Part shown: positions 6,613 to 55,312 of the stretch, piece after piece
Layout: every line of letters begins with the position of its first letter
How positions within the stretch are numbered: the first letter of the stretch is position 1
Origin: Porodaedalea pini
Lineage: Eukaryota; Basidiomycota; Agaricomycetes; Hymenochaetales; Hymenochaetaceae
Length of the DNA: 64,000 bases
Assembly (NCBI GenBank): GCA_002794775.1
Contig: NBAY01000046.1
Span: 186,001 to 250,000 of the forward strand
Direction: 5' to 3'
The notes under the pieces: model-generated
What the model was told of the DNA's origin: nothing
Database searches by the model: none
The model's input: the letters and a program-made list of their open reading frames with translations, nothing else
Made by a program: the position numbers and the translations under genes

Positions 6613-6620
6613 CCATCGGG

Positions 6621-12373: not shown

Positions 12374-12390
12374 TAAATTACCTAAAACAG

Positions 12391-18641: not shown

Positions 18642-19012
18642 ACATAATAGCTTATCTGTTCATCGGATGACTCTTTATGAGTCTATCCGTTCATCTTTTG
18701 TTCATCTTACATAACGAGCACTTAGACTATGAACTGATCATTCTCTTTGATCCACGTCCTCTGAACCATAAAGTAGTGTATGTTATGTAAATATGGAACG
18801 GTTCTTATCATTCCACATGGATGTCGAGTGTACGTCTTAATAAATAAAATATAATGAACAGTTCATAATAAATGGCTCATGTACTCTGCGAACAGAAAAG
18901 GAAACTGTTGACCCATCCCCATGCTGAAGAGCTCGAACGGTTCACCAGGAGTCATTCCATCTGAACTAAGAAACTCTTTGTTAATATGAAAGAATGAAAT
19001 GAACGGTTCATG
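18642..19012. repeat. Left terminal region of element A
   Basis: The TIR (18647-18673) begins ATAGCTTATC. Further in are several GTTCAT, GAACGGTTC and GAACAGTTC words (about 18700-19015). The right end of A and both ends of B contain the same kind of words. They are candidate transposase-binding repeats. Confidence 0.6.
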
Positions 19013-22000
19013 TTAGAACTTACCGCGCTTTGCATGTACATTGGCATTGCTCTTTTTGCGCTTTCCGTGCTTCGGTGATGATCCGATAGCTGGCTCATCG
19101 TCGATCTTGAAATCATTCAACAACACGCGAACATTGTTCGCCATGGCGGTGTACATGGTGCTTTTGCGTGCAGCAAACACAGAAGAACTGAAGCTCTTGC
19201 CGTCTCTCAGTTGGTCATACGTGGACCTCCACATCACTGCCCACCTAACAAAGCCTCTAACCAATCGTCTGCACTCCTCTTCGACTATCATCCGCTCCTC
19301 TTGCCAACGGTCTCTTGACGCTCGGGTGTGGAACCATAGTACTTGATTTTCTGAGAGCTTTTCAGAGATCTCATAATGGAAAGGAGCAAGGCCTCCTACC
19401 TTCCAAGGTATCAGGCAACGCATCGATTCCCACTTCATCTCCTCCCACACTCCAAATCCATCCAAGTGGTTTAGTCCCAGAGCTGAGTTCGTGAGGTTCG
19501 GAAACTGACAGGCAATAAGTGTCGGCTTCGGTAAGAGGACGTAGTTTAGTGTTCTTTTCGGCCATGCCAAGTGCAAGTAAGCATCAACGAGCTGCACGAT
19601 ATTCAGCAATAGAACTGTGCTTCCTCTTGGCTTCCTGAGTTTTTTGTTGCGATGTACGGGTGCCAGATTGCTTCCCATGCCCGTATTTCTGCTTCAGTTT
19701 CGTAAGATACTGCAAGCCGCGTATAGCTCTCTTGAGTTGGGCTAGAGCATCATATGCCTGGGCCTCACACATCTTGTACTCTGCTTTCGCTAATTCCTGA
19801 AGCCCGAAGACATGTTGTTCAATATTTGTAAAGGAGGAAGGTAGACACAACTCGATGTCTTCTACATTCACGTTATTTGAATCGGGAAGCGTCACTTTGG
19901 ACATGAATATCGAACACTTAGCTTTCCAGTTTTTTATGTCTTGGTCCAAGTTAACACGTGATGCTGTAGATACGTGCTGTTGTGATTTGGATTTCATATC
20001 AAGTCTGTCCGGGGCATGTCAGCTTTTAATCTAGTAAGGAATTGGATTGGACATACTGCCGTCTCTGAATTGATATGGCTTCATAAATGAAATCTTTGTG
20101 GTCCATATCACATTTGTGTGAACTCTGCACCACTCGACGTCTGTGTTTCGGACTCCTCCAGTGAAGGAAGGGCTGGAGATCAGTCATCAGTCAGTTACAA
20201 AGATACAACAGCAAATTGATACCCACAAGGAATTTGGAGCTGATAAACGCTCGTCCAATCGCCATTCTGATCCTTCATAGGTTTCGTATCTTTGCTCTGC
20301 CAGTTACGAACACTCTTTTCAGAGTAAAGGTTTCTCATTCTTGCATCGCATTCATGAAAAGCCTTATTGAATTCGTCTTCCTTTTCGAGAGCTATTTTTT
20401 GTCTCTCGTAAAGGGCAACACCTGCAACACGGAACATATAGAGCTTCAGAACGAGCAGAAACGAAAGACAAAAAAGGAAGAAATGAAATAGAAAGGCCTC
20501 ATAGACAGCACACACCCATGTTTTGAAGCTTTGTCCAATTCGATGCTGCATTAAAATCATCTAATGTGTCGCAGCGGTGGCCGGGTCCCATCTGTTTTGT
20601 ACTGCCGGCCACTTGGTTCATTTCTGACCAATATCGTTCGACTTCTTCACCATCAGTATGACCAACCCCGTGTGCGAAAGGTAGAGAATACCCATATTGA
20701 CAAGAGTACTTATGACCATTAGCATGAAACGTGCCGATAAAATATTTGATGATATCGCGGACTATGTTCATTTGTTGCGGGAAGCATTTCTCGAATCTCT
20801 TCACGATATTGATGGAATATTGGCAGTTTATATCGTAAGAGAGATTGATCCTTGGGATACCTTCCGTGCACTTCAGTGCACCTGACAGCGCGTAATCGAC
20901 ATTAATGTGTCTCGAAGCGGCCAAATCAGTATTTGCATACCGAAGAGGCCTATGGACGTACCTCTCCCCCTTCTGCAGATTAACCGCTCCCTCCGGTTCA
21001 CAAAGCCCATGTCTGCATAAAACTACAACCAACCCACTCGCATTCTGGCCATGGTGTTTCAACGTATTGTTCGCGTTCTGGATTGCCGCAAAGTTTGAAC
21101 AATTGCTTTTCTTTGTACAATGAGAAGCGTCTTCATTCGTAATGAGAAAGCAACGAACCTCTTCTTTAATGTCTCCAAAGGTGTTGATATGCACCTCCAA
21201 CTCCTCTTGTTTCCTTACATACCCCCGACCATCCCACAATGCCTTCTCACGAAGATTATTCTTTTTATTGAGACCGATGAGATGAAAGTTTGCGTCGATA
21301 GACAAAAACTTTGAATTTTTGTAACTGCACAGAAAGTGAGTACTCCGTCATATATTAGAGCATCATGAATATTCACGTACTCGGCAGCAAGTCGCTTGTC
21401 AGTATTGAAGCCAGGAAGAGGACAAGCAAGACACGGTATCACAAAAGATCTTGGAGGTCGTCGAATGAACTCATCATCGAATCCATGAAGTTGGCCACTC
21501 CTATGCTCCGCGGTGAGCAAGCACCAGTAGTGAGCAATGCGTATGAATTGAGCAGATGGTACCTAGAACGCAGTTAAAGAATAGTCTTGATAGTTTCTAG
21601 TCGCCAAACTTACCGAGAATGGAATAAAATTGTTTGTTTTCTTCCGGAGTCCCTCTATGTAGTCGTATGCCGATTTTTTTGATACAATAGTATGTATGTG
21701 GAAATCGCGCAATGCATTATGTGTGAAAGCGATGTGAGGCAGTTTCGCAGAGGCAGGAAATAACCCATACTTTACTAACTGCAGAACTTCGTGTTCCTTT
21801 CCTGCGCAACTGCAATACACAATTTGACATTTATGGATGCCGTTGACATCAGCTATGGTAAAAGAATGGTTCGTAGGCGCAGTCACTGATCTGCAGCGTT
21901 GTCCCCTATGACCAAGATGGATCGAAAGCCCAAGGGAACTCAAGTCCACGTGTTCAAAGTACTCTCCCGTCCATTTCTCGGCCCAATGAAATGGAAGTAA

Positions 22001-22580
22001 GCGGTGGTGATCCTTCAAGCATTCGTCACAGATCACTTTGACTCGAGTGCAGTCGAAACACCAGAACTGTCGAAGCTTTCCTTGTCGATTGCAAGCACAT
22101 GGCTTCAGGACCATGGGATCGTACTCGAAGTCAATGATTGCTGCCTGAATTTTCTCATGGAATGGCTTGAACTCGTCTAGGAAAGCTTCGGCAGATTGAG
22201 GCTAACGGTTGCGTCAGATTAGTATAAAAAAGAACGGTAGTACACGCACCATAAAGTAGACATCCTCCTCCTTCACTATGTCGAACTTCGTAGAGGCATA
22301 CGGAAACGGAGGAGACTAAAAATGAAGACAGTCAAACATCGTTGAAATACAACTGATGTAAACTACTTACAAGATGACTGGTCCCTCTTTCATCTATGTT
22401 GATGAAAGACTTGCCTTCGGGTTCTTCGGTGTGATCGTCGTCACTGGAGAAATAACAACTACTGGAGTCATTGCTGAGCTCGTCACTGCTGCAATCACCA
22501 CTAGAGTCGCTGCTGGATCCATAGTGAACCTCCGACCTGTGCAATCCAGCCTTGTAATTTTGAGTCTGCATTTGCGCCAT
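19013..22580 (-). CDS. KDZ transposase with CxC2 cysteine cluster (element A)
   Basis: The multi-exon gene starts with MAQMQTQNYK at 22580. After a Ser/Asp-rich N-terminus, the CxC2 zinc-binding cluster lies at about 22090-21890 (CACNRQG, CFDC, CDECLKDHH, CSCAGKEHEV). The RNase H-fold catalytic part runs from about 21305 to 20540. Its candidate acidic residues are in SIDANFHLIGLNKKNN, LSYDINCQYS and HTDGEEVERYWSEMNQ. A coiled, basic C-terminal part follows to about 19020. Introns are short with GT-AG borders (for example before SPPFPYAS and PQSAEAF). I found no disabling stop in the parts traced, so the enzyme may be active. It would cut and join the element's ends. The last exon could extend past 19013, because GTAAGT follows KRG. 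Confidence 0.85.
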
Positions 22581-22829
22581 GTAATCTTGGAGGGGGTCAT
22601 AACGCTCAATACGCGCATTTCATAGAGTGCTGCGGCCCGTATCGCACTCCGAGCAAGAAATGCAACCCCGATCAGAACATAGCTCCCAATCTGTAAGACA
22701 TAACGCACCATCGTCATATTTCATGACTGTCGACTCTGCTTTTGTTACTATACACAAGAGCACACTACGACTGCAATGCATTCCCTCCGTACTACACGAA
22801 TCGTATAGAATAATGTTGCTTTCTTTTTT

Positions 22830-23060
22830 CAATCTCCAGACGACACCTGTTTCATCTGGCGACGTCTGTATGTCCTACGAAAGGTCTGGCGCCGGCCTCC
22901 TCTCACCACACCTGACCCTTATCGTCTTGTCATGGGAGCCCGAGTTGATGCATGTCACGTCGGGCGTGAAGGCAAAGCAGACGATAGAGTCTGTGTGCCC
23001 TTCGAAAAGACCGGAGACGACCTCCCAGACAGGTACATTCCAGACTTGCCCGGATTCATA
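22830..23060 (-). pseudogene. WD40-repeat fragment
   Basis: Minus-strand reading includes EVVSGLFEGHTDSIVCFAF and SGSHDKTIRV, about one and a half WD40 repeats, ending in stops. No flanking NACHT sequence is visible. It lies between the transposase 5' end and the palindrome and has no counterpart that I can see in element B. It is probably a captured or leftover piece of a STAND or WD40 gene. Confidence 0.6.
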
Positions 23061-23095
23061 ATGAATTTACAAGACCTAATATACTAACAAGGCCA

Positions 23096-23382
23096 TGTCG
23101 GCGAGCGGCCACGGCGGTGGTGATGGTGGAAGAGCTGAAAGGCGAAACCCGGTGTTCGCCAAGTGCTTTTGTTCGCGTCGATTGTGGGAAAGTCCTGCCA
23201 CCTGAAGCGTACAAAAGGTTAACATAAGCTTAACAGTAGATCAGCTTCCATTTGCTTATGTGAAGTACTTCCAGAAGGTAAGGTTTTCCCACAATCAATG
23301 CGAACAAAAGCACTCGGCGAACGCCGGGTTTCGCCTTTCAGCTCTTCCACCATCACCACCGCCGTGGCCGCTCGCTGACGCT
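23096..23382. repeat. Conserved palindrome upstream of the Spt5-like gene (element A)
   Basis: Arms of about 100 bp (23096-23195 and 23283-23382) pair with only a few mismatches around an 87-bp centre. Each arm carries CCCACAATC followed by GAACAAAAGCACT and a run encoding His/Pro-like CACCATCACC. The same core occurs as a much longer palindrome in element B (45996-46955), again next to the Spt5-like gene. Confidence 0.85.
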
Positions 23383-23760
23383 CAATTGTCCGTTGTCCCC
23401 ATCATTCCATGGCCAACTATTGTCTTCCACATGCCATTGCTTGAACTCGCAGGGCCCAGTTGTCATGTGAGTATGCTCTTCTGCTCTGTGTCATTGCGTC
23501 TACTGACTTGTCTTCATTTTGCATCCAGATCACTTGCTTCACGCTGATACTGCCGCAACCCACCAACCAGCGGTAAGTGTAATTTTGTCATCATTTATTT
23601 TTTCAATGAGCACATTCTTGCTTTGCAGTTTTGTCTTGTTGAGCTCAGAATCCACAAGAGATTCATCAATTCAAATTTCATTGCGGTCGTCAAGCAAGCA
23701 GATCGTATGTCCGGTTTTCTTCACGTCCCGATTGTAAGGTGTTCTCAGTATTCGCTGTTC
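23283..23760 (+). CDS. Putative small spliced gene Z, function unknown
   Basis: Three short open pieces are joined by good GT-AG borders: one ending GPSCH before GTGAGT (about 23467), one ITCFTLILPQPTNQR (about 23529-23572), and one after TTTGCAG (about 23629) containing CTCAGAATCCACAAGAG. The last phrase is conserved in both arms of the element B palindrome. I do not recognise the product and the coding frame is not settled. It could equally be a non-coding transcript. Confidence 0.3.
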
Positions 23761-23935
23761 TATATTCTCTTGTACTAGTTAGATACGTAGTATACGATTT
23801 TGTATCCTATTTAGACTAATTTCCGGTCAAAGGAATTAAGTGAAGCGCAAAAATGAGATGGCTCAGGTGAATCTCGTACTAATGAGTTAAAATGCACAAA
23901 AAAAGACTTAATGATAGAGACAGGTTACCGGTGAT

Positions 23936-26886
23936 ATGCGTGCGGAGGTGCAGAAGTATTTTGACACGGAAGCGCAGGTATTTGATGACGATGAGGAGGA
24001 TACGTTCGTCGATGATGACGAAGGTATGTCTATGGTTTCTGTTATATATTTTTATATTACTGAAGTGTCTTCAGACAGTACAATCTTTTATTGACGATGA
24101 GGCTTGACCGACTGAAACTTACGCCTCCTCCTCCCGAATTATGCTCGACTTGTTGGACTCTGACTCTGACGACGATCTCGAGCGCATTGCGGAGAGGTAC
24201 AGGAAGCGCTCGCGCACTGGACCGGCCCCGTATGACACCGACAACAGGTCTCATCCTGTTGTTCAGACCTTCGCGCAATGTGGTCATTTCCCCGCTGAGG
24301 CTGCCATGGATGATTCTGAGTACGAGCTGGTGATGATCCGCGTTACAGTGAGTGTATTGGTTTTAAATATTGCAAATCTATCTAAATGGTGTTCCAAGCC
24401 TGGCAAAGAAAAGTCTTGCGCTTCGGTTGCGCAGGACTGGCTTCCACAGATTTGTTTAGCATTCTCAGTCGATATTCTCCCTGGCCGGATATACGTATGG
24501 ACTCTGAACGCGTCAACTGTGTGGCAATCCTATCTTGCTCGAGGCATCATTCTCCCACCGCGCTCGGTCTCCTTCGTTCCGCGTGACAAGATCAATTCAG
24601 TTTTTGACTGTCGGAACAGACTATACGCTGCAAAAACAAAGGTCGGAGACTGGGTTTTCGTGCGTCGAGGGACATATCGCGGAGACATCGCCATAGTGCG
24701 AGAGGTGTTGGACGGCGACGCTTTGAAGTTAGCAGTTGTTCCACGTATATCGACAAAGAGCTACGCTCAGTCGAAACGCGTGGAGCGAATGCTTGCAACT
24801 CTGAAACTGTTGGCCAACAACTTTCCAACGGAAGAGCTTCACTGGCTTTTGAGCAATACTTTCAAATTTCGCAAGCATGACTATACTGACCATTTGCGCA
24901 TACTTACAGTTGCTGGGCTTCATTCTGTTCGACCGGCTTCCCCCTCTCTTGATGATGTTTTTCTTTTTTCTCACACGGAATTGGGTGTGCTTGACAATAT
25001 AGAACACTATACTCGCCGTGGAGACTTGATAGTTGTAGTTTCAGGACCTTACCAGAAGATGGCTGGAATGGTCATGACAGTTGATGAAAAAACAGTCGAA
25101 CTGGGTCAAGTCTGTCGCATAGATAGTGTTCTAGTCGGACTGGCAGACAACGAGATTGATGATATCGGCCTGCAGCACTTAATATCTCGTCCCAAGGTTC
25201 GCGAGCTTCAGGGATCGGAGCCTTTGTTGCAAAATATTACCGTATCCCGAAGTGCTGTTCATCGACTCCTCAATCTTGGAGACAACGTTGTTGTGAAAGC
25301 CGGCCCTCGCAAAGGAGCCATGGGCATCATAATGGCGATCGAAAAAAAAATGATTTCTGTACATCTCGACGAACAGGAGGATTTTGTACATGAAGTTTAT
25401 TAAACGTGTCTTTTATTTCATTTATACTAACACTTTCAAATACATTTCAAATTAAATACAGCTGTCCATTCGAGCGAGCTGGGTTGAACTCGATCAAGCC
25501 AATAGTTCCGTTATCCGCAAAGCCGGACACCCTAATTTTTCCTTCGGAGTTAGCATTATAGTTCTGGAAGGGCCGCATAAGGGAAAGAGAGGCTTCATTC
25601 TTGCGGCACAAGCGGACATGGTGCGCGTATGCATCTTCAATCGCCTGAGAAAAGTGGTGCATAGTGCAATTCGAATTTATTTACCACTGTGATTTACTCT
25701 TTGTTCAGGTGGAGTTGCCTATACACGCCATCATGGAATGCGACGACGACACGAATGTAAATCGCAAACTCCAAGATGTTTACGCGTACGAAAAGGAGAA
25801 GAGGAACACTTTCCTTGGAGCGAACGTATTCATTCGCGGCGTGGACGGGAAAGCGAGGTTCGCGAAGGGTTTTCGCGGTTATGTGCAGAGCATCGACGAG
25901 ACGAAGAGAACTGCGGAGGTCTCATACGGCCACAATAATACGGTCGAGATCTTCCCGCTGAAGAATCTTATCTCAATGTATGTATTTGTGTTATACAACA
26001 GTGTCACGGACTCACCATGTTATTATAGCGACCACGTAGAATGTCTGGACAACCGCTGCCGCTTGTCTGCAGAAGAGAAACTGGAGTACCTCGAGAAATT
26101 CAAAAACCTCAAGCCTTCCGGTACTCCTTTGTGTGACTCGACTCCGCCGCCACTGCCACCTGCCGATTCTGAAGAGTGGAGACCGACTTTCGATGAGACA
26201 TTTAACAATCCTGCGCCGCCCGTATCTGGTGAGTTTCTATCCTTTCTAGTTTACGTGGATACTCAAATGATTTAGACTTTTTGGGGTCTGGAATGTGGAT
26301 ATTGTCGCCTGCTGTTCAGGCGATAACTCATCACTACAAAATCCACATCAAGGTCTCCTCAAAAGACAGATGTGGAGTCCTTGTCATCAATGACCCGTTC
26401 GGCGACCACATCAACTGCTCCGCTTCTCACGAGCATTGTGCCGTGAACGTTAATGTCGATACTGGGCACGGAATCTCTGCATCCCTTGTTACTGTCTCCG
26501 ACCTGGAGGCTCGCCAACCCACAAAAAAAGGCGAGCTTGTTATACAGATCAGAGCCTTCGTTCAAAGTGACGTCGGCAGATTACTTCGAGTCATTGCATT
26601 GCCGCGCGCGAGAGGTGGTCTGAAGAAGGTAATGGTCTCGGTTCTGGGTGACAAATTTCGGTTTTGGGATGAGCTTGCAAGCAATTTGACACTGGTCGAG
26701 CCATTGCAGAGTTGGTGCGCAAGTCTTCGGTTAACCTCTATGTGTATTGCTAAAATGTTCTCCAGATTCGTAGCAATTTTTATCGATATACCCCTAGACT
26801 TATTGTTATTACCTAAATTATATATGCTCTGTGATCGAGTTGGGAGGTGTGATCGCGTGAACGAGACAATAACAGTCTTTGGTTAA
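23936..26886 (+). CDS. Spt5-like NGN/KOW protein (element A)
   Basis: The multi-exon gene has an acidic N-terminus (FDDDEEDTFVDDDE). After an intron comes LDSDSDDDLERIAERYRKRSRTGPAPYD, then an NGN-like segment (about 24325-24640), then KOW-type modules. Clear ones are TKVGDWVFVRRGTYRGDIAIV (about 24640), RRGDLIVVVSGPYQKMAGMV (about 25015), LGDNVVVKAGPRKGAMGII (about 25275), GVSIIVLEGPHKGKRGFIL (about 25550) and ANVFIRGVDGKARFAKGFRGYV (about 25823). Introns at 25388-25459, about 25650-25709, 25978-26028 and 26229-26275 have GT-AG borders. Spt5 with Spt4 clamps RNA polymerase II during elongation; this protein keeps the KOW layout but is shorter than host Spt5. One in-frame TGA (about 24108) sits where element B has another residue run, so it may start downstream or be damaged. 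Confidence 0.75.
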
Positions 26887-27166
26887 ATGTACTAACCACC
26901 TATATTATTCACGAGATGTAGAATGGAGATTATCAAGATTTTACTGGTGTTTAGGTTCTTGTCTAAGCAGTTTTCGCCTTGGCTTTGTGTTCGGTGAGTT
27001 ATTCCTCGTGATTGGTCTTATACTGCAAAACAAAAGCTAATCGAGCCTTTGGAAAGGATTACCCCTGGTCTAAGGGGCCAAAGCGTTGTTGGCCTTGTCT
27101 TGCGAGTATTTAAAATGTACGTCCTTTTGCAATAATTTCATGAATCTCCCTGCTGACTTTCTCGAT

Positions 27167-28377
27167 ATGCGCTACTATCCGATTATGGGGAGACCACCTG
27201 CGGGATTCGACGAGCGGAAACTCGACATACTTTTGGCTTATCTGCCTTCGCCAGGCGACTGCAAAGAAGCATTTCTCAAGATGTCCGAGAAATGTACCAT
27301 TCCAGGTTGTAGGGGCAACCACGAAATTCAGCTGGGATTAGGAGAGGGAAAGGCAATATCTTCTTATGGAAAATTGCTGTTTGTGGTACGTCGTTCGCGT
27401 TCATATTGTGTATATTACAACATTTTGTAATGATTATGAAACAGTGTAAGGAAAACTACTCCAAGCAACTGCCATTGGAGAACATTCAACTCAGTGACGC
27501 GGAGAGGGCAGCTGTCGTTTGGGAGTGTCAAGAGTTGAACCCGCCTGCTTTGCTGGGGGCCTCGGTTCGCATCGACAACCAAGCTAATTGGAAATCTTTG
27601 CTTCCAACTGGCTTTAAAACCCGCAGCCCAACAGCGATGCGATGCATACAGGAGATGCAGTGCACTCAAAACAGAGGAGCAAGCGACGTAGGAGCGGAGC
27701 GCTTTTTGCTTTCTCCTTCACATGCCTCACCGAAGAAGTCACCTATCAAGCGTGAGGTCCTTCCCCCGGTGGACTCGACTACGCTGAATCCACACTCATC
27801 TCCCGAATCTACCAAGATGCACGGCATGTCAATTTCGTCACCTGTGGTGTCTTCGCGTAAGGCACCACCTATCAAGACCGAAACTTTTCTTTCTGCTTTG
27901 CGTTCCTCAGCCACGACCCCACTGAAGCAACCAAAGCCCCGCCCCCGTAATGCATCCTTGCGTGGCCTGCCAGCAACGTCTTCCGGCTCATCACCTGAAA
28001 GCCATTCTAGCTCCTCGCCGGTTTCACCAGCAACCTTCGGCCGCAAGGTCCTTGAAGCATTTAGGTATAAGGCCCCTGCGCAATCAGCATCTTCTACTCG
28101 TCCGACCCCGGTCATTGATATCACCTCCGATTCCGACGACGGAATGCCTAACAAAGCTTCCAGTCCTACTCTTCAGAGGATTGCGTGCAAGACCTTGTCT
28201 GTAGCTAAACGGTCTGCATCTTTGAAGCTCGAGCCGAAAATTCTGGTCCCTTCGTCTGATCCCAAAGACAACAAAGCCACTACATCGACTAGACCACTTA
28301 CTGGGAAACGTGTCCGCTCGGCCAAAAGTGACATGAAGCGAAGCACGAAACGTGCACGAAAGGTTGGATGTAATTAA
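27167..28377 (+). CDS. Cargo protein X with SUMO-interaction-like motif (element A)
   Basis: Two exons (27167-27385 and 27445-28377, intron GTACGT to AAACAG) give 383 residues starting MRYYPIMGRPPAGF. I do not recognise the N-terminal 130 residues, but they are shared with the element B copy (YP, P, LxxLP, GCxxxHE and CK positions). The rest is Ser/Pro-rich. VIDITSDSDD (about 28112-28141) looks like a SUMO-interaction motif with its acidic tail. The C-terminus (TGKRVRSAKSDMKRSTKRAR) is a likely nuclear localisation signal. The copy is intact. A nuclear adaptor role is inference from these motifs only. Confidence 0.65.
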
Positions 28378-28405
28378 ATTTATATAGTCCTGTCTCCCTA
28401 TGTCT

Positions 28406-28969: not shown

Positions 28970-29144
28970 ATTTCTGCGCTTGGATGAGGCCTGTTGACGC
29001 CCGAGTGCGCATTGTTTATCATGGCCTTGTTCAGGTGGTTCGCCATTCGTTTATGCTGAGCCTAAGCGCACAATGTGAGTACTCTATAAATTGCTTTACA
29101 TACTGCGCTGACACCCCTCCAGCAACAGACCACTCAGTCTTCAC

Positions 29145-30847: not shown

Positions 30848-31188
30848 ACTGGCAAGTGCTTACACCGGGAAAATCCTGGTTCATTAAACTTGAACGATTC
30901 AATGGTTAATTGGCATGCTCGTTCATCTTGCAGATTCGGGCTACTTAGAACGGTTTTATCTTTTCATTTTCTTCATTCTTCATTTGTTCATTTCTTTCAT
31001 GAACCGTTCACGGACTTTTCTTTTTTCTTTCTTTCTATTCTCTCGTGTTTTCCTTACCTATCCATTATGAACCGTTCTTACTATAAGTCTTTGTGTAGTA
31101 TTTACTCATGTACTAGTATAATTACTTAGAATGAACTGTTCGACTTATTATGAGTCGTCTGTTCAACCGATAAGCTATGGTTCCTGTG
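30848..31188. repeat. Right terminal region of element A
   Basis: A T-rich stretch carries repeated GAACCGTTC/GAACGGTT/GAACTGTTC words (about 30947, 31001, 31070, 31131). It ends with the right TIR (31152-31178, reverse complement beginning ATAGCTTATC). No gene was seen. Confidence 0.6.
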
Positions 31189-31196
31189 TGGGCTAC

Positions 31197-40969: not shown

Positions 40970-42024
40970 TGCGAGTCGACGACCTCTTCGTCATTCTCTT
41001 CTTCTTCCACATAGTCCTCCACCGTCGACCTCCGAGTGTCTACGACTTCCTCGAAGGCCGATTCCTTCATCGCGCCGAGCTCGTCCGCGAGGATGCGACG
41101 TTCGCCTGGTGCCATTAGCTCCAGCATGCGCTGGATGATCGGCTTCCCCTGCGGGCACTTGTCCTTGAAATGGCCCAGCCCGCCGCAGATCCAGCACGCG
41201 CGTCGTCGTTGCGCCTCGTTCATTGAGACGTCCATCGGTTGACCAGCGCCTCCGAACGTGACGCCGGTCGCGTCGCGTTTGTCGACGTGCGGGGCTGCAA
41301 CTTGGCGCCGAGCGGGGGGTGCCTGTTGTTGTTGACGAGGTTGAGGTATGAACGGACGGCCTCGTTGGATCGCTCGGATCTGCTGTTCGCCACGATCGAT
41401 CTCGATAGCCTTGTTCTTCCATGCCTCATATGTTGTTGGCACGGGCGTCGACCTCAGCACGCCGCGGACTACCTCGATGTTCATTGCCCGCTTGAGACGA
41501 TCGCAGATGACGCTGTCGTCCTTCAGTTCCGCCCGCTTGATGATGACGTCGAGTTGTTGGAAGAACTTATCCGCGGTGAGGTCCTTCTGAACCTTCTCCC
41601 GGAAATCCTTCAGCGCCGCTTCTTTTCGGTTCGGGTCGTCGAACGAGGCGTCGAGTCGTTCCTGGAATCTATCCCAGCTGTCCGTGAAGGTGACAATTCC
41701 CGCCGTTGTCGATTCCTCGACGTAGTTCTGTGCCCACGTTGCCGCATTACCACCCTTCAGGTAGGAGAGAGCTACGTAAATCTTGCTTTCCGACGTAGGG
41801 TATCGGTTTGGGTTCGCGGACACGAAAAGGAGGACTTCTCGTCTGAAGTCGAGGTAATCGTCGCCGCCAGTGAATTCACGTGGCCGGGCGACATCTATGT
41901 TGGGGGTCGGGGGGTTAGCGGCTGCGACCGGTGCTGGGGCGTTGTTCGCCTGATGGGCGAAGGCATTCGCAACGATGGCCGCGATCTGCGCCATTTGCTG
42001 TTGGCTGAAACCTTCTGCTGACAT
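40945..42024 (-). CDS. gag: gag protein of gypsy copy 3
   Basis: The 359-residue protein starts MSAEGFSQQQMAQ. The retrotransposon gag/capsid fold covers about residues 55-190 (AATWAQNYVEES, FQERLDASFDD). A CCHC knuckle CWICGGLGHFKDKC is at about residues 285-298. The tail is acidic and ends SQGFASGQA. It would form the virus-like particle and bind the RNA. The frame is open for some way upstream of this ATG through the Pro-rich leader, so a longer N-terminus is possible. Confidence 0.93.
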   Translation of the reverse strand: MSAEGFSQQQMAQIAAIVANAFAHQANNAPAPVAAANPPTPNIDVARPREFTGGDDYLDFRREVLLFVSANPNRYPTSESKIYVALSYLKGGNAATWAQNYVEESTTAGIVTFTDSWDRFQERLDASFDDPNRKEAALKDFREKVQKDLTADKFFQQLDVIIKRAELKDDSVICDRLKRAMNIEVVRGVLRSTPVPTTYEAWKNKAIEIDRGEQQIRAIQRGRPFIPQPRQQQQAPPARRQVAAPHVDKRDATGVTFGGAGQPMDVSMNEAQRRRACWICGGLGHFKDKCPQGKPIIQRMLELMAPGERRILADELGAMKESAFEEVVDTRRSTVEDYVEEEENDEEVVDSQGFASGQA

Positions 42025-42780
42025 CGTGGGTTCGGGTGTCGAAGGTTCTGGGGGAGTCGGCGGTGAGGGGTCTCTGTTGGTCTCGCGGTAAGGACCTGGG
42101 GTTGGTGGTAGGTTGACCGTAGATGTTGACGGTGCGGGTGACGACGGAGCGGCTGGGGGCCACCTTGCTCTCCTTCCTCGTTCGTCTGATGAATACCAGC
42201 TGCGCCGGATTTCACTCCACCAGATGTCGTGAGTGACGCCGCTATTATTGGTCGCGACGTAGCCTGGTCGGTCTGGATCCCAACGGGCTGAAGCAGGAAG
42301 GGCCCGTTGCTGTTCGTCGGTGAGATCTATCTTGACGTTGGCGGAGGGACAGGGATCGGTTGCGCATTCGATCCGGGGTTACGCCAACGTTGAGCGGGTT
42401 CGTCAGCGAAGTTGATGACGAGGCGGTAGGATCCGAGTGAGATTACAAACGAGATCGTCGTCGAAGTTTGGACTCGTCTAGTTACCCACGTCCACGTCAG
42501 GTGCGTGCTCCACCAGAGGCTAATCCGGAGAGCCAGGGTGGGAGGGAGTTTCCCGATTGGGGCGTCCGGTCCTCCAAGGTCAAGTAGGTGCCCAAATGCG
42601 GTAATAGTCGGGGAAAGTCGGATTACTTAATACACGAACGTTCGAAAACGCCCGGGCGGGGTTGAGGGTTGTCGTTCAGGGGTTTTTTTACACGTCAAGT
42701 CCGTCGAGGGGAATGCTCCTCTAGACCGAGTGAAGGCGAGTCGACAGCGACGACGTACGCTGGGGATGAGCCTGGGTGTG

Positions 42781-42791
42781 GTTCTGCTTTT
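42781..42791 (-). promoter_or_regulatory. Putative self-priming primer-binding site (copy 3)
   Basis: On the minus strand AAAAGCAGAAC follows one base after the 5' LTR. It is the exact complement of GTTCTGCTTTT inside the LTR (42998-42988). No tRNA-like 3' end match is obvious. Confidence 0.65.
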
Positions 42792-42792
42792 A

Positions 42793-43218
42793 TGTTAGGC
42801 GGGAGCCCGGGAGACGACTCGGACTGGGCAGGCCTCGGCTGACTGTTGTCTGGGACGTGCTATACTCAAGCGTAGACTCGGGACACGCTTACTCAGGCTA
42901 GGTCGTCGCGGAGGTAAGAGGATTAATACAAGTCTAAACTAATACAGGGGGGACGAGTCTCACCTAGGTCGTCGCGGAGGTAAGAGGAAAAGCAGAACAA
43001 GGAGTTCATGCGATTCCTGAGACCTTATATAGCGACGACCGTGAGACTATATTATCTAATATTACATAAAGGGTCAGAATGGAACGAATGAAGGTCACGT
43101 GAATGAAGTGTGGGAAATGATTGGTCCGATGATTAAATATAATGAAAAGGAGCGATTAAAATAAAAGGAAATGGTAAAAGGGAAAAATAAAGAAAGGGTG
43201 AAAGTTCGAGTCCTGACA
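42793..43218 (-). repeat. 5' LTR of gypsy copy 3 with promoter
   Basis: The 426-bp LTR contains CTATATAAGG (minus; 43032-43023). GTTCTGCTTTT starts at 42998, about 30 bases downstream, where transcription should begin. The phrase CCTCTTACCTCCGCGACGACC occurs twice in the downstream part. Confidence 0.92.
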
Positions 43219-45995
43219 CATTGATCATGCAACGAGGTGCAGTCTGCATGATTGCCAATTGAGGCACCAACGACAATTGTTCCGCATCTATCCTTCGACC
43301 ATACTTTGACGTGAAGCTTGTGTGTAGAAAATCTCGCCTGGATGGCAGGCGAGAATATCCACATTCCTGGTCCCGAAAAATCTTCGGATTCATCAGTACA
43401 AGCTTTTAATAATTCCATTTACTTCTTACCCAAAACAGGTAGTAATGCTTCCAAGTTGTCCATTTCATCAGGCTGTACAGCCCAGGTGTCAGAGCTTGAA
43501 GAGGTCGATGGAGGCGGCGGAGTTGGTGATCGCGGACATTGCGTGCTGATTTGTTTCTCCTTAAAGCGCTCTGTGTACTCTTTTCGCTCTGTAATGGTTA
43601 ATGGATACTGCGGATCCAAGCATGCGATATGATCCCTGGACCAATGCGTGGTGAATCAATGAGAAAGTTCAGCGTAAGCAGCAAAGATGTACACGGAGAC
43701 CAGATTCTTTAGCGGGAGCATCTCGACTTTGTTATTGTTACCATATGAGACTTGCACAGTCTTCATGGTCCCATCAACGCTCAAGACATAGCCGCGAAAC
43801 CCCTTTGCGTACTTCGCCTTTCTGTCAAGCCCCTGGATCAGCACATATGCACCAATGTACGGATTGCGCGCCTCCCGTTCATACGCAAAGAGGTCCCTTA
43901 TCTTATTCTTCACCATGTCGTCACATGAGCATTCCTCAATGGAGTGCAAGGGAAGTTCAAGCTTAGCAGAGAAGGAGGTCAGTTTCACAATCGTGAACCA
44001 ATTAAAAGTTGTACTGTTTGTTGTAAGCGTTCAAACACACACACTCATACAACATCAGAATTGACCTGTAAGATGAAACCCCTATGGCCTTTGAATCATC
44101 CATCCTTTACGATGATGCTAGCGCCATAAACCAAAGGGCGAATCCCAGCTTTGTGCAGAATCCTACTGTTCATCACATCTGTAGTTTCAACCCAGTTTGA
44201 TCAAATGTTCAGCTAGTGTTTAAGAAATATTCATATCAATCCAAAATCGTAATCAATATAGCTAATGCATACCAGATCCTCATTTTCATTTAAAAACAAT
44301 GATATCCTTTTTTTTTCAATCATCACAATGAAGCCTGACAATCCTGAACGTGGGCCTGCTTTCACGGTAACGTTGTTGCCAATATCGAAGAGTCAATGAA
44401 TAGCTTTCTGAGATACAGTAATGTCCTGCAATACAGGCTCTGAATCCTGAAGATCCTGAACTTTTCCATGAGAAGCCAGAAACTCAAGCCCAGTGTTCTC
44501 GATCTCCTCGTCTGACATGCCAACCAAAAGACTGTCTATGCGACAGACATTACCGAGTACAACTGACTTGTCATTAAGGGTTGTGACTATGCCAGCCATT
44601 GTCTGAAATGGACCAGAAACGACTACAACGCTGTCCCCACGCCAAACGTAGAATTCTACATCCTCAAGGTCGCCAAGATCTGTATGAGAAAATAAAAAGA
44701 CATCATGTAAAGATGGCGAAGCTCATCGAACGGAATGCAAGCCGGGTACGGTAAGAATGTGCAAGTTATCCACATAGTCCGCCCTGCGAAATTTAAAGTG
44801 ACTGTCCAAAATGATGCAAATATTTGTTTTTTCCTCTGGAAATTGAGCAGCTAATTGTCCAGGTGTTATGAGAGCACGTTCGGCGCGTTTTGACTTAGCA
44901 CCACTCTTTGTCGGTATGTGTGGTACAACGGCTAGCTTCAGTGCGTCACCGTCCAACACTTCATGCACGATGGCAAAGTCATTATGATAAGTCCCTCAAT
45001 GAATCGAGACCCAGTTCCCAACTTCAAATTTCCTGGTATTCTGTCCATCCCAACACTCGAATACAGAATTGACATCACCGAATGGAACAAATGAAAGACT
45101 GCGATGTGGCAACGTGATGCCACGAGCGACGTATGAATCGTGAACAACTTTTGCATTCGGAGCCCATATGTATATTCATCCAGGAAGACCCATCACAGCC
45201 AAAGCCAAGCAGTCGTCTGGAAGCCAAACCTGAGCAAAAGCAGCAGATCTCACCTCCTTCCCGGGCTTTCAAACGATATAAGAATCAAATAACAAGATAA
45301 TAAAGAATACAATACACACAGCAACACGAACCATCAGTAATTCGTACTTGGAGTCGTCGATTCCCATGTCAGGAGGAAAACAGCTGGTCTTCTGAATAGA
45401 TTGAAGAGCAGGGTGGCTCTCCTTGGAAAGATCATAAGGGGCGGGACCAGTACGTGCATGCTTCCTAAACCTCTCTGCAATACCCTCAAGATCTTCCGTA
45501 GCTCCCATATCCAATGTGATTCAAGATGACAAGGCCAAAGTAGCAGTTGATGGGACATCATCATCAATGAACGAGTTATCTGTTTGAATACTTTGTGAGT
45601 TGTCATACTGCAGGAATGAGTAAACTCATACCTTCGTCGCCGTCAAACATGCTGTCCTCATCATCATCAAAGACTATTGCCTCCTTATCAAGAAATGATT
45701 TGACAAGTGTACGCATGTCACTTTCGGCCATCTAAAATTTTATTTTATGTTTCAATTCTCTAAGTACTTCTGTAGGTGCGAATTCACCTTGTCAAGGAGT
45801 TTTGTTCCCTAGAATTCTTGCAAATAATTTCGTCTAGTCTACACATCTACGCTATACAAAGCTCTACTTACTGACACTAAATCTACAGTATAACAATGAA
45901 TATGGGCAAAGCTAAGGAAACAGAAACACAGAAATTCGAAAGCACGTATGATCTGATCTGCTTGATGATCTTGCTCGAACGTGCAAAGGCGAAAG

Positions 45996-46955
45996 CATAG
46001 ACAAATCCTCTTGTGGATTCTGAGCTTGATGGTGTTGGGATCTGTGGATTGCGGGACGTTCTCACTGGAAGACAAATGAAGGATAAACCAAAAAAAAAAA
46101 AAAAAAACTGCTTGCTGTGGTCCTTGCTGGGTCATTCTTGATTAAGTACGTTGGGCGGCTAGAAAGAAAGCTCAAATATTGGAGCGGCGTGCTTGGACAG
46201 ATCACCTACCTGATCCAATTGTGTCATGTGGTCTTGTGCAGAAAGCCGTGACAAGGACAAAGAATGCAGAGGGATGGGAGGACGAAACAATAGCGAGCCT
46301 TGAAGAGTGCAGAGACAAAGACAGCAGGCAACAGTGTGGACTGCGGCCAGGATGGTGGTGGTGATGGAGAGTCAGAAAGGTGTGCCCCGGAGTCGGCCGA
46401 GTGCTTTTGTTTGCGCCGATTGTGGGAACTGCTTACCTTTAAATGTATAGTAGTAAAGCTTAACAATGCATCACATGCTTATAGTCTAATTTAAAATGCT
46501 TCTGCTAGGAAGGTCATTCCCACAATCAATGTGAACAAAAGCACTCGGCCGACTCTGGGGCACGCCTTTCTGACTCTCCATCACCACCACCATCCTGGCC
46601 GCAGTCCACACTGTTGCCTGCTGTCTTTGTCTCTGCACTCTTCAAGGCTCGCTATTGTTTCGTCCTCCCATCCCTCTGCATTCTTTGTCCTTGTCACAGC
46701 TTTCTGCACAAGACCACGTGACACAATTGGATCAGGTAGGTGATCTGTCCAAGCATGCCGCTCCAATATTTGAGCTTTCTTTCTAGCCGCCTGACATACT
46801 TAATCAAGAACGACCCAGCGAGGACCAGGAACTCTGACAGCAAGTAGTTTGTTTTGTTTTGTTTATCCTTCATTTGTCTTCCAGTGAGAACGTCTTGCAA
46901 TCCACAGATCACTACACCATCGAGCTCAGAATCCACAAGAGGATTCGTCTATGCT
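45996..46955. repeat. Large palindrome beside the Spt5-like gene (element B)
   Basis: Arms of about 440 bp (45996-46435 and 46514-46955) face each other around an 80-bp centre. Both arms encode the same 61-residue frame (RRAWTDHLPDPIV ... CGLRPGWWW in one, RHAWTDHLPDPIV in the other). The inner arm ends (CCCACAATC, GAACAAAAGCACTCGGC, CACCATCACCACCACC) match the element A palindrome. A run of 19 A interrupts the left arm near 46087-46105. It lies between the 5' end of the Spt5-like gene and gene X. Confidence 0.88.
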
Positions 46956-47512
46956 TTTGTCATAGCACGGGGCACGCTTTTCTGACTCCCTCATTGCCGT
47001 CGCCTTGGTCCAGTGGCCGCACGCTGGCTAGTGCTTCCTCATGACTCACCATGTAGAACAAATAGTTAATTAAATTGTATCTTATAATTATGAATTGAAA
47101 ACAAAATGTCCTTGAGAATGCATACTCCTAGCGAAGTAGGCAGTGCATTCCAAGTAGATTTGTTGAAGGATTTGCCTACCACGCACTCGAGGTTTGTGAT
47201 ACCATTCTAATTGCTGAAGAATTTCATTGGAGGGTCATGTAATGACCTGACCTGAACTTGGCTTGGTTGCGTCTGCATTTCGGAGTATGTTCTATCACTT
47301 TTGCTCAAGAGAATTAACTCTTCCCTTTTGGCTTTACAGGTAGCAACCCAACCAGAAGAATGTAATGGTCATGTCACTCAGGCCTCGATGCTGTGATATT
47401 GCGGCCATTCCTTAGACCAATGAAGTCCAAGTGGTCTTGTAGGTGCGTAGTATGTACTCTTTTTAAATGTGAGCATATTGCTGATGGCAAGTTGCTCTTC
47501 TCCATTACAAAC
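46956..47512. other. Spacer between palindrome and gene X
   Basis: A degenerate third piece of the palindrome theme (GGCACGCTTTTCTGACTCCCTCATTGCCG, about 46970-46998) is visible. The rest is AT-rich and probably holds the promoter of gene X. No gene recognised. Confidence 0.4.
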
Positions 47513-48524
47513 ATGCTCGTCTATCCTACAACATCGCTCCCGTTGCCCAACGCTGACATTCGTGTCTCGCGAATTCTACGAGCTCATCTGCCTCCCAGGC
47601 AAGAAATTGGACTTGCATTTGCAACCAAGGTCCAAGCCCACCGCAAGCATGGTTGCACGAACGTGCATGAGGTCCATCTCTGCGAAGGAGAAATGAACAG
47701 ACTGAACGTAGGTGTACTCTACATGCACGTATGTTGTCTCTATTTTATGATTAAGTACCATGGCTTACTCTTCACAGTGCAAAGCCCAAGGCCAGCTTCA
47801 TCTGGAGCATTTTAGTGTACAGATGAGTGATATTATGAAAGTCGCATGCATCAAAGAATTCTTAGCGTTAGACCCTCCTGTGATTATTGGCAAGAAGGAG
47901 CATGAAGCGAATGCGAAGCTTTTGAAGGACTTGATTCCCACTGCTTTCCGACACAAGACAGACGAAATATTGGCAAGAAGATCGTCAGAGGTGTATCAAT
48001 CCCCTCTTCACTCTGACTCTGACTCCGACTTCGAAATCAGCACTCCTCAAAGCAGTCATCTTTCGAAGTCATCTCTGGCTTATAAGGTGTCGAAGGGCGC
48101 AATTATCCCATTTGCCTGCCCCAAGTCTTCTCCACTCCATAAACAGACTGCAGAAGTGGAAACACTGAAGAATACGAAAGGGAAGACAGCAGCAATGTGC
48201 CCGAAGGTTACTCCCCATCCTGCCAAATGTACAACCACAATGTTTTCAGACCTTGGTAGTTCTTCCCCACCAACTCCACCAACTTTCCTTTGTGAGTTCA
48301 ATGTGGCGATGAAGCCCAACTCTCAGCTCAAGGCCTTTGCTTCCACATCGAACAGCAATGTGGCCGCAGGACCATTGAAGATTCTGGTCATTTATGTGAG
48401 CTCATCTGATGAAGAAGACGACACACTGTCATCCAGCCCTCTGGCGAAGAAGCGCAAACATTCAGTCGTGAAGGACAAAGAAACGGACAAGATGGCTGTG
48501 AAGAAGGAACGCCTCGGGGAATAG
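47513..48524 (+). CDS. Cargo protein X (element B)
   Basis: Exons 47513-47728 and 47778-48524 (intron GTATGT to TTCACAG) give 320 residues starting MLVYPTTSLPLP. The first exon is 72 codons, against 73 in element A, and the intron falls at the same place just before CK. No stop interrupts it, unlike its neighbours. The middle is Ser-rich (SDSDSDFEISTPQSS). VIYVSSSDEEDD near 48390-48425 parallels the SUMO-interaction-like motif of the A copy. It ends with basic KKRKHSVVKDKETDK. I recognise no catalytic domain. Confidence 0.65.
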
Positions 48525-49003
48525 AACACGCATAGAATATATATATTATTTTTGTACGGTGCCTGGAGCACCATAAAGACCTGTATTACTCCGCTCTTTT
48601 CATCTATACCCTGAACCCGAAACACACAGTCACCCCTTGCCTATACTTTGCTTATTGCAGAATACACTTTGATTACAATACAAACTAAGCTCAAGCAAAC
48701 CCGCTCATGCATAAAAGTTGGGTTGTCACGCTGCCGCTTGTTTGTTTGTTGGCTTAGGCCTATAACATAGCAGATTGAACCAAAGCATGGTGGCCCTGGC
48801 ATGACCCAAGCGTATTGGCCAGGTGTACTGGCCAATATGCTTGGGTCACGCTGGGGCCAAAGAAATGTGGCCAGCTATGTGGTTATCAAACAAAGCATTT
48901 AAAGGTAAGCCTCTGGCCATCATACTATATATATTGAGACCTTTTTAGTGGCTAACCACCTCTTCACCCATTAATCGCATTGCCCATACTCCAAGATATC
49001 CCA

Positions 49004-50865
49004 ATGTCCACAAAACCGAAGCTTAAGCAGACTAAGCTTCCCATCAAGCAGGCGAGCGAACCGCAGGACCTAACAAACACCGATGATACTGCTTTGGTCA
49101 AGCTGTTTGATCCTGAGCTTGACGAGAGGAATGGAAAACGAGAGCCGTTTACTGAAGCTCAGAAGATGTGGTTGAGCTCGAAGCTCCTGCGCTTTTATTC
49201 GCTTTCACATGAGCAGCCCCACCACCCACAAGTTAAAGCTTACAAGAACAAGATTGCAAACAAGTACGTTAAGGAGTTCAAGTTTACAGGAGACCTGAAT
49301 AAACACAGAAGCATATGTTTAACAATTACTAGTGCTTCGCTTCATAAAACTAATGAATTTATAGAGGGTGAGACGATGGATCTCTAATCAGAAATGTGTC
49401 GACTGTCCAAGCTCAGTGAACAGATCTCTGTCAGAGAAGGAGTTGAATATACTTGCCAACTTCTTTGACAGAGATCGCACTATTACCGGGAGAGCTTTGT
49501 TTCTCCGTGAAAACAAAGCTCTGATCAAAGAGTGTACTGATGCAAAATTGCTGTCTCTCAAACCTGGAAAGACCAGATGAGGACTGCCATCCACTGTTCA
49601 GAAGGAGGCATACAACGCTCTAACGGAAGAAGAGAAGGCTGAATATGACAGACGGGCGGCTGCGGAGAATGCACAAACAAGGGTTTCATGCAATGGTTGT
49701 ATAGATGATGCCATGGTCAAAGAGTATGTTAATTCTTTTTTTTTTTGGTTTGTATCTCTTCTGACTCTTGCTTCATTAGCAACCAGCGAAAAGCCCCTAA
49801 TGTGTTGCAATGGCTTCTGAGCGGCTTGGGTGGTCGCGGAAATAGCTATTCAGTTGGAGATGCTGTATTTCACATTCAGTTCACCTTCCGAAGTCCAAGC
49901 GGTGAAGTAATCATAGATAAGTATGTTTTAATTTTAAATTTCTGCTTATTATAGCCACTGATGGAGATCGTAGAATCCATACTGGCTTTGAAGGGAAATT
50001 CTTCTATGATAACCGAGCTTATAAAAAATGCAAAGTCACTAAGTCTTGGGTGTCTTTTGTATCTGAAGTATTTGGTCAATGTGCGTGTTTAATCAAAAAA
50101 TTGAAATGTGTTTTACTCAAATAAACCTATATTTAAGCTGGAATGAAGTCATGTCTCATTTTGCAGGAGCATGCATCATCTTCCGATGAGACTGAATTGC
50201 AACAGGAAGAAGGATTCATAGTTAATTCTTCACCTCCGCCTAAGGCAGACTACCAGACTGTATTCTCTAATCTTCAGACCAAAGCAGCTTCATATTCGCT
50301 TCATTCTGATGGTATTGAAAGTTCTGGCCCAGCACCTATCCATGAACTTGCATGGCTCATGGAAACTTTACTGTCAGTCACTTCTGACATCCTGACACCA
50401 GTAATAACGGATCATGGCTCAGAGGTAGCAGAAGTGCTCGATCTGCCCATGCAGGCTAACGTAGTTTGTCCTGCAATCTCCTCGGCCTCACTCCCCCTTG
50501 ACAGTCCAATACAGTCCGAGCATGGTGTCACAAGTTATTTGGACGTACGCGCGGATTCTGCAGAACTCGGTGAATCTCAGTTTCTGTCTGCCACCACAAT
50601 GCTGGTCGGAACGGGCACCATTCCTATTCATTATGTGGCTAGTCCAGTGTTGACTCAGAAGCTGCACTGTATTGCTGAACCACCGGACTCAATCACTGTC
50701 GCAGACCAAGTCACTGAAGCTCCACAAACTTCTATGAAGTGTAGCGCTGAATCAAGCAGTGCTGACCAGGAACATGGGCAACAGAGGACAAAGAAACGAT
50801 GCTCCGAAGATATGACTGCGACCAATACACAACAGAAAAGTACACACAAGATCAAGCAGCCGTAA
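49004..50865 (+). pseudogene. Cargo protein Y (element B, damaged)
   Basis: It starts MSTKPKLKQTKLPIKQ. Blocks shared with element A are FYSLSHEQPHHPQVKAYKN (about 49193-49250), LFLRENKALIKE (about 49498-49533) and EAYNALTEEEKAEYDRRA (about 49607-49660). Also shared are NSYSVGDAVFHIQF (about 49846) and KKCKVTKSWVSF (about 50025). A TGA after PGKTR (about 49577) replaces a probable arginine codon, and the donor after NKHR (about 49311) is no longer GT. The long C-terminal part is acidic, Ser-rich and ends KSTHKIKQP. It is likely inactive here. Confidence 0.65.
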
Positions 50866-51411
50866 GCTTTATTCTCCATTTAAAATTGTGACAACAAAGC
50901 TGATCTTTAAAAAGACAGCGTATGAATCTCGATTTGCCAGACTCAGCGAAGAACAAGAAAAACAGAAAATAGACACTCCGAACAGCTCATTTCTTGGTCC
51001 CATTATTTTAATGCTGTTTCCTTCTCTTTTTGTCTTTGCATATGAACTGATCAACTGGCTTGATGGTTCAGCACTCCAGTGTGCACCTTGCATATAATTT
51101 CTGTTTTGAACCGTTCATACATGATCTCATCTGCAAACAGGTCTTGTTGCGACTCATCAGCTTCACTTTTTTCCCTGATGTTGTTCCCCTCACATCCGAT
51201 CTGTTCACTTTTTATCTTCATCTCACCCCCTCTCTGATCTCTTCCATACATTTATGTTTTGCCCAGAACCGTTCATAGATAGCTTCGTAGTTTACATTAT
51301 TGTACAGTAGTTAGTAGTTAGAGTAATATAGAGTAGTCAGAACAGATCTTCCCTAAAGATCTGTTCTGACTACTTATTGGTCACTGTCTGAACCAAGCTC
51401 CTGTGATGCCT
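50866..51411. repeat. Right terminal region of element B, with hairpin
   Basis: GAACCGTTCAT occurs at about 51107 and 51267. A perfect 19-bp hairpin (AGTAGTCAGAACAGATCTT at 51332-51350 with its complement at 51356-51374) precedes the TIR core at 51388-51406. No gene was seen. Confidence 0.7.
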
Positions 51412-55294: not shown

Positions 55295-55312
55295 GACACA
55301 AGGCTCACAACC

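Follow-up and report, generated by a model that had tools for sequence, protein, structure and literature searches.

Transposons are usually described as encoding cut-and-paste enzymes and, in fungi, also an enzyme of the demethylation type. Large KDZ and Plavaka transposons of fungi are known to carry TET/JBP genes, which have been exchanged between transposon superfamilies (PMC12730594), and large CxC-KDZ elements of about 9–11 kb with 4–8 bp target duplications have been described in Cryptococcus as KDZ1-3 (PMC12810828). In bacteria, long gene clusters gained by horizontal transfer are served by specialised paralogues of NusG, and such paralogues are also found inside the tra operons of some plasmids, where an antitermination role has been proposed (PMC7593976). 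Plants employ a specialised Spt5 paralogue, SPT5L/KTF1 (RDM3), in RNA-directed methylation, where this host gene promotes the silencing of transposons (PMC3111484). For a transposon-borne Spt5 we found no description, either in the titles and abstract openings of the papers listed in a full-text literature search, a search in which subscription papers lay mostly outside the scope, or in the main text of the KDZ-related papers searched, from which the word Spt5 is absent; the string "transpos" is likewise absent from the main text of a 2026 survey of elongation factors. Here we describe two elements, A and B, in a 64-kb window of the Porodaedalea pini genome (the whole of C46:186001–250000, from an assembly of 53.27 Mb in 201 contigs). 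On balance, we think that they belong to a family of multi-gene CxC2-KDZ elements encoding a transposase, an Spt5-derived RNA polymerase II (Pol II) elongation factor and two further proteins, X and Y, and that the Spt5-like protein serves the element that encodes it. The family is a linked and mobile module whose Spt5-like member shares common descent with Spt5 and has been under purifying selection between subfamilies. Its parts in the window are as follows.

18639–31186: element A, a CxC2-KDZ transposon with cargo, 12,548 bp (ends from comparison with B and with copies on contigs C76 and C54)
18990–22600 (approx.), minus strand: CxC2-KDZ transposase gene of A (KDZ core 20499–21347, PF18758, E = 1.2e-50; CxC2 21563–22201, PF18803, E = 1.9e-30)
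23097–23379: palindrome of A (arms of 108 bp), located between the KDZ gene and the Spt5-like gene, upstream of the latter
23858–26760 (approx.), plus strand: Spt5-like gene of A (acidic N-terminus, NGN, KOW domains, C-terminal His/Cys region; KOW E = 9.8e-11)
27080–28377 (approx.), plus strand: protein X of A, fast-evolving, no Pfam domain
29146–30847 (approx.), plus strand: protein Y of A, with a weakly supported HMG-box-like region in exon 2
18796, 18935, 19001 (left end) and 31001, 31069 (right end): subterminal palindromic motif GAACSGTTC in A (span 18796–31077)
32374–51412: element B, a relative of A with a gypsy element inserted, 19,039 bp in total and about 12,710 bp after gypsy removal
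32760–36460 (approx.), minus strand: CxC2-KDZ transposase gene of B (PF18758, E = 6.9e-33; PF18803, E = 2.3e-20)
36600–45720, minus strand: Spt5-like gene of B, decayed and split by the gypsy element (45720–43219 and 36889–36600)
36890–43218, minus strand: gypsy element in B, 6,329 bp, long terminal repeats (LTRs) of 429 bp, 99.5% identical
45980–46969: palindrome of B, separating the 5' end of the Spt5-like gene from the gene for X
47500–48525 (approx.), plus strand: protein X of B
49004–50980 (approx.), plus strand: protein Y of B
51108 and 51266 (right end): subterminal GAACSGTTC in B (span 51108–51274)

The transposases of A and B both match PF18758 and PF18803 above cut-off, which makes them KDZ transposases with an N-terminal CxC cysteine cluster. 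The sequence-only reading of this DNA had described A and B as diverged CxC2 KDZ transposons sharing five parts, and all five are indeed present in both; its lengths without the gypsy insertion (12,547 and 12,707 bp) needed only slight refinement. It had overlooked that a block consisting of the palindrome and the Spt5-like gene is inverted between the two, and that both elements are damaged. In A the order is KDZ (−), palindrome, Spt5-like (+), X (+), Y (+), and in B it is KDZ (−), Spt5-like (−), palindrome, X (+), Y (+). The Spt5-like proteins are 56% identical over 429 aa (E = 2.7e-143, main frame of A, with stops read through), pieces of Y about 39–47% identical, and X only 22% identical (E = 1.9e-8). 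Homology of B to the Spt5-like protein of A ends at 43218 and picks up again at 36889, on either side of the gypsy element that interrupts the gene. A recent tandem duplication, already discounted in the sequence-only reading, is ruled out by protein stretches that are 22–68% identical and by a separate target duplication for each element.

These target duplications have the 7–8 bp length typical of KDZ elements. B is flanked by GCTATGA on both sides (32367–32373 and 51413–51419; 7/7 matching), and a relative of B on C54, with the same termini, by TGACCTT (7/7). The flanks of A, CATGGGC (18632–18638) and TGTGGGC (31187–31193), match at 5/7 positions, and no target duplication is visible at the ends of the C76 copy, which is near-identical to that on C54. 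The termini read GTAAC..CCTG, and B has an imperfect inner inverted repeat of about 19 bp, which leads us to reject membership in Kyakuja, the lineage of the TET-bearing families, with its 5'-CA..TG-3' termini and no terminal inverted repeats (TIRs) (PMC12730594). The resemblance to the TET/JBP transposons lies in the transposase superfamilies and in a cargo from the epigenetic and transcriptional sphere that is common to unrelated transposon lineages (PMC12730594), but the cargo here is the Spt5-like protein with X and Y and not a dioxygenase. TET/JBP was rejected as a cargo: the one match in the source genome (C6:1344614–1345018) falls below cut-off (24.8 bits) and has no KDZ match within 250 kb. 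The Cryptococcus elements are similarly large CxC-KDZ elements, but they have CxC1 domains and TIRs of 139–241 bp, and no mention of Spt5 or a KOW domain was found in the main text of their description (PMC12810828).

Stop codons mark both copies as decayed. In A, the Spt5-like gene has a single in-frame TGA (24105–24107) in its N-terminal part where relatives have Arg; in B, the main Spt5-like exon has four in-frame stops, each an Arg codon in a relative on C1, and the CxC2 exon has two where A has Arg. Five more stops in the KDZ core of B fall in two short intron-like stretches and were excluded from the count. A and B are thus fossils of an active family and are not demonstrably active themselves. 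Stops in the Spt5-like matches of the genome are mostly TGA.

We compared the Spt5-like protein with the single canonical Spt5 of this fungus, which has 549 relatives in the protein database (66–91% identity among the best 120 listed, including those of Sphaerobolus and Athelia, which by itself makes an agaricomycete host very probable).

C24:291300–296300: canonical host Spt5, single copy by PF03439

A profile of five transposon copies aligns with host Spt5 over 332 columns at 26% identity (E = 4e-15, hhalign) and with Spt5 chains in the PDB with E-values down to 2.3e-9. The best Foldseek matches of the predicted structure (predicted local distance difference test score, pLDDT, 64) are Spt5 chains of Pol II elongation complexes (E = 3e-14, overall template modelling (TM) score 0.30), and comparison with crystal structures gives TM scores, relative to the target, of 0.70 for KOW1-linker and 0.67 for KOW2-KOW3. 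The profile, PDB and Foldseek matches together identify the NGN and KOW domains as homologous to those of Spt5, although PF03439 (Spt5-NGN) finds no match in any transposon copy and only the canonical gene in the genome. The canonical and transposon versions have NGN and KOW1-3 in common, together with an intron position just before PGKE (GHEV in a second type of transposon gene, described below), which is the same in the host gene, A, B and the second type, and by alignment in a Plavaka-associated type. This common position points to an intron-bearing Spt5 gene as the source. The two differ at the C-terminus: host Spt5 has nine repeats resembling the C-terminal repeats (CTR) of Spt5, whereas none occurs in any of five transposon sequences, all five of which, including the Plavaka version, end instead in a region with an HxxC..HxxC pattern (the second type was outside both tests). 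Pfam does not recognise this His/Cys region, which is not included in the segment that aligns with host Spt5. The plant paralogue RDM3, likewise a specialised eukaryotic Spt5 tied to transposon silencing, matches the transposon proteins only weakly (E = 0.011 and 0.015).

Across the source genome, 77 KDZ matches and 61 Spt5-like matches were merged by hand into 53 and 42 loci, counts that are lower bounds. One of the 42 is host Spt5; the remaining 41 transposon loci comprise 22 of the A/B type, 14 of a second type and five of a third. In the A/B type, whose loci were identified through the Spt5-like gene so that its presence is not counted as evidence, X and Y are each found at 22/22 loci (on C25, Y sits 67 kb off), a KDZ match lies within 15 kb at 21/22, CxC2 is present at 20/22 and the palindrome core at 19/22; a genome search finds X solely in this element type. 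The strand order is A-like at five loci (A, C2, C67, C23 and C25, the last without a detected KDZ match) and B-like at 17. Since the Spt5 tree, which contains 16 of the 22 loci, splits along the same line as the gene order, one ancestral inversion of the palindrome and Spt5-like block suffices.

Over all types, a KDZ locus is no more than 15 kb away at 33/41 transposon Spt5-like loci, compared to a mean of 5.3 and a maximum of 15 in 5000 trials of random placement on the same contigs (the size of C106 being assumed). As a control, Plavaka matches lie this close to KDZ in only 2/42 cases. Chance adjacency in repeat-rich DNA is thereby ruled out, and the cargo is not found mostly away from KDZ. 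Three Spt5-like loci (C25, C106 and C7:834) have neither a KDZ nor a Plavaka partner within 15 kb.

The second type is arranged divergently to a transposase of another KDZ lineage at 12/14 loci, with a spacing of 4.5–4.9 kb in 8/12 and 7–11 kb in 4/12; in the one copy examined, a CxC1 match of this transposase stays below cut-off. Protein identity to the query copy is 91–96% in five further full-length Spt5-like copies of this type, and seven KDZ loci of this lineage are 95–98% identical across 3.7 kb, which indicates that the pair has moved recently.

The third type consists of five loci that are 91–96% identical to each other across 2.6–4.3 kb and have no KDZ match nearby. At each of them, a close Plavaka transposase copy (84–100% identity) lies on the same contig in convergent orientation, an arrangement by which we ruled out orphan host paralogues. 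The spacing is 7.4 kb in two loci, 15.6 kb in one and 72–75 kb in two, the latter three pairs not being proven to form single elements. The C107 and C1 copies remain collinear (94.2%) along 12.75 kb, a stretch that starts ahead of the Spt5-like gene and extends beyond the Plavaka gene, whose product on C107 matches PF18759 with E = 1.7e-14 (54.3 bits against a cut-off of 26.3). Plavaka has no sequence similarity to the KDZ groups (PMC12730594).

C107, 31687–47699: Plavaka element with Spt5-like gene, ends CATCACGAAAA..TTTTCGTGATG, GA on either side (2-bp duplication)

These ends agree with the PlavakaB signature of CATCA..TGATG termini and 2–3 bp duplications (Kojima, PMC12730594, section 3.2.2), although they come from one copy and a 2-bp match is weak alone; the right end could be read in this copy only because a gypsy-like LTR interrupts the C1 copy there. 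Related gypsy sequence occurs in or beside Spt5-carrying transposons at three places, namely within the Spt5-like gene of B (36890–43218), past the C-terminal part of the C7 Spt5-like gene, and to the right of the C1 Plavaka copy (C1 2306410). Downstream of the Spt5-like gene, the C107 and C7 copies have an extra gene (L065 436–1059; L063 1975–2385) with the Cys/His pattern WFCPLC..H..TH, which is possibly another cargo gene; its C107 version has no Pfam match.

In a tree of 26 rows (20 transposon and 6 cellular sequences), the 20 transposon rows form a single clade (100/100), in which the A/B type and the Plavaka version are neighbours and the second KDZ type branches outside them. A single capture of Spt5, probably followed by exchange between KDZ lineages and a PlavakaB lineage, is the simplest way to read this topology. 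That the cargo belongs to the transposon, as first proposed from the letters of the window, is borne out in this one genome by KDZ linkage and by the ratios of nonsynonymous to synonymous substitution (dN/dS) given below. The proposal was too narrow, however, in assigning it to CxC2 KDZ transposons: because it also accompanies a Plavaka transposase and the transposase of a second KDZ lineage, the Spt5-like gene is a cargo common to different transposon superfamilies.

We estimated dN/dS by the Nei-Gojobori method with Jukes-Cantor correction, dropping stop codons and gaps; saturated pairs gave no value. Between subfamilies, the ratio is 0.14–0.29 for the Spt5-like exon and 0.13–0.21 for the second-lineage KDZ gene, and between B and the C76 and C54 copies it is 0.20–0.23 for X and 0.31–0.53 for segments of Y. 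Among B, C24 and C31 the KDZ values are 0.15, 0.19 and 0.37, which are rough, as short introns were probably read as codons in the KDZ frames of A, B, C24 and C31. Ratios near 1 would speak against service to the transposon; those between subfamilies are well below 1, while several damaged or recent pairs give 0.4–1.1. Such high values are expected between recent copies because copies decay after insertion, and the mixture is the usual pattern for genes needed by a transposing lineage. The gene histories also conflict, with dS between B and C24 of 0.12 for the Spt5-like exon and 0.71 for the KDZ core, and between B and C31 of 0.31 and 0.26, respectively; the elements may swap modules by recombination.

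In seven of seven clean close pairs of copies, transitions have hit 12–22% of CpG sites against 0.4–2.3% of sites elsewhere, an approximately 10- to 30-fold excess. Three of the ten pairs tested were excluded from this range for poorly aligned ends (ratios 1.5–2.3). The excess is a strong sign that the elements are CpG-methylated, lending indirect support to the earlier supposition of a methylated genome.

The palindrome core is 78–82% identical between A and B, and a genome search with it returned 32 matches in 19 loci, all of the A/B type and none elsewhere. Since it stays fixed to the 5' end of the Spt5-like gene across the inversion, it is the natural choice of a candidate recruitment or promoter site. 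The shorter motif GAACSGTTC has seven exact copies in the window, where about 0.6 would be expected per 64 kb, and none is farther than 365 bp from the nearest end of A or B; the left end of B has no exact copy. X has no match in Pfam and no recognisable domain. In Y, the HMG-box-like stretch reaches Pfam E-values of 0.13–0.2, below cut-off, and a low-confidence model built on two aligned rows (pLDDT averaging 61, with higher values in its core) finds mostly HMG boxes as its best Foldseek matches, none better than E = 0.56, so that an HMG-box-like Y is a lead only.

The identity of the Spt5-like protein suggests a role for the module in transcription or chromatin, most readily as the transposon's own factor for elongation or against silencing. 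In a working element, with the conserved palindrome fixed to the 5' side of its gene, the Spt5-like protein would bind Pol II through NGN-KOW and would be brought to the element via its C-terminal region, via X or Y, or via the palindrome. There it would replace host Spt5, whose CTR may wire the host protein to host processing and silencing, and could keep Pol II moving through 12–16 kb of CpG-methylated, silenced DNA. The logic of the bacterial factor RfaH fits this scheme, because a diverged Spt5 that keeps the Pol II-binding part, without the host repeats and with another C-terminus, is encoded by a long methylated element. Like RfaH and its kin, which are paralogues of the universal NusG/Spt5 and in some cases sit on mobile DNA within the long operons they are thought to serve (PMC7593976), it is a specialised form of a general factor; unlike RfaH, which is bacterial, operon-based and recruited through the ops site, it is eukaryotic, and the palindrome is a candidate site only. 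The more general proposition that eukaryotic DNA transposons own a Pol II elongation factor, a captured Spt5 without a CTR but with a targeting domain, passed between KDZ and Plavaka and licensing the transcription of long methylated elements as a counterpart of RfaH, is one we advance tentatively, at slightly less than an even chance.

Several observations weigh against these proposals. Both copies in the window are damaged, and the Spt5-like dN/dS among B, C24 and C31 is 0.47–0.49; between recent copies, the values over all genes range from 0.17 to 1.1, biased by CpG mutation. The transposon Spt5 clade sits on long branches, with the second-lineage row flagged as unsure, and neither the A Spt5-like frame nor the five-sequence alignment found relatives in the protein database at E ≤ 0.001, in a search limited by exact-word seeding and a length window. 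The Plavaka and second-lineage KDZ pieces examined yielded no match to the palindrome. No Spt5-like gene lies within 30 kb of 20/53 KDZ loci (for example C65:69976, C65:123065, C43:329246 and C63:236344; several have top-scoring CxC2 domains), so KDZ transposition does not generally depend on it. Finally, truncation of the Spt5 CTR repeats enhances RNA interference (RNAi)-independent heterochromatin in S. pombe (PMC10659198), and a CTR-less Spt5 is thus not automatically anti-silencing.

The S. pombe result cuts both ways for another account of the protein, by which it would not be an elongation factor for its own element but would compete with host Spt5 for Pol II or silencing partners, so that silencing coupled to transcription, through RNAi or heterochromatin, would be blocked in trans for every copy. 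That the host CTR controls heterochromatin in S. pombe (PMC10659198), that the transposon copies retain the Pol II-binding part and show no CTR repeats, and that plants use an Spt5 paralogue in RNA-directed methylation (PMC3111484) are all congenial to it, but a shortened CTR strengthens heterochromatin, and conservation of the KOW-rich middle and the C-terminal region extends across KDZ and Plavaka copies (43% identity in a five-row alignment), beyond what a simple competitor needs. We regard this competitor role as unlikely. Somewhat harder still to credit is a part for the Spt5-like protein, X and Y in the transposition complex itself, joining distant ends or coupling excision to transcription, with an HMG-like Y bending DNA: the sub-threshold HMG-like region of Y (no Foldseek HMG box below E = 0.5), the palindromic subterminal repeats and a palindrome that travels with the module would suit it, but an elongation factor would be an unusual transposition subunit, and the 20/53 KDZ loci without the gene within 30 kb again tell against it.

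Large transposons commonly contain captured pieces of host genes, and many copies here are broken, with recent-copy dN/dS often 0.4–1.1. That the cargo is nevertheless a chance capture of no benefit to the transposon is very improbable in view of Spt5-like ratios of 0.14–0.29 between subfamilies, close to those of the second-lineage transposase, of a cargo kept at every locus of the A/B type, and of the presence of the Spt5-like gene with three transposase lineages. We give as little credence to a carrier element whose X, Y or Spt5-like protein serves the fungus. Such a role could account for a multi-gene cargo maintained under selection, but the copies are numerous, divergent and decayed at CpG sites, A and B show no gene for metabolism or defence, and the same type of cargo accompanies unrelated transposases, as with transposon-borne TET/JBP (PMC12730594).

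The remaining features of the window surround the two elements. A and B both lie within a copia element, of which reverse transcriptase (31659–32417, RVT_2, E = 1.7e-15) and gag (54416–55312, E = 3e-8) pieces are recognisable.

18214–55595, minus strand: copia element enclosing A and B (LTRs 18214–18496 and 55313–55595, 98% identical)

An NLR-type gene (12321–15669, plus strand) combines NPHP3_N/NACHT-like pieces with a downstream array of nine or more WD40 repeats, each 129 bp (43 aa) long. An inverted repeat at 11522–12376 (arms of 406 bp, 92% complementary, 43-bp spacer), the outer 44 bp of which recur at 63957–64000, is possibly a foldback element or miniature inverted-repeat transposable element with a relative at the window edge. 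Positions 1–11000 hold several partial copies of a gypsy-like sequence that run opposite to the gypsy element of B and include a 64-bp tandem unit (4543–4670).

If our reading of the Spt5-like protein is correct, a transposon-borne relative of an elongation factor would be a case of selfish DNA attacking silencing at the elongation step, and a eukaryotic instance of a bacterial-type specialised factor would generalise that idea. A natural Spt5 without a CTR, perhaps able to open up chromatin that is silenced, would also be a testable tool. In its exchange between KDZ and Plavaka, the Spt5-like gene resembles TET/JBP, which suggests that genes of this kind are widely traded among fungal transposons.

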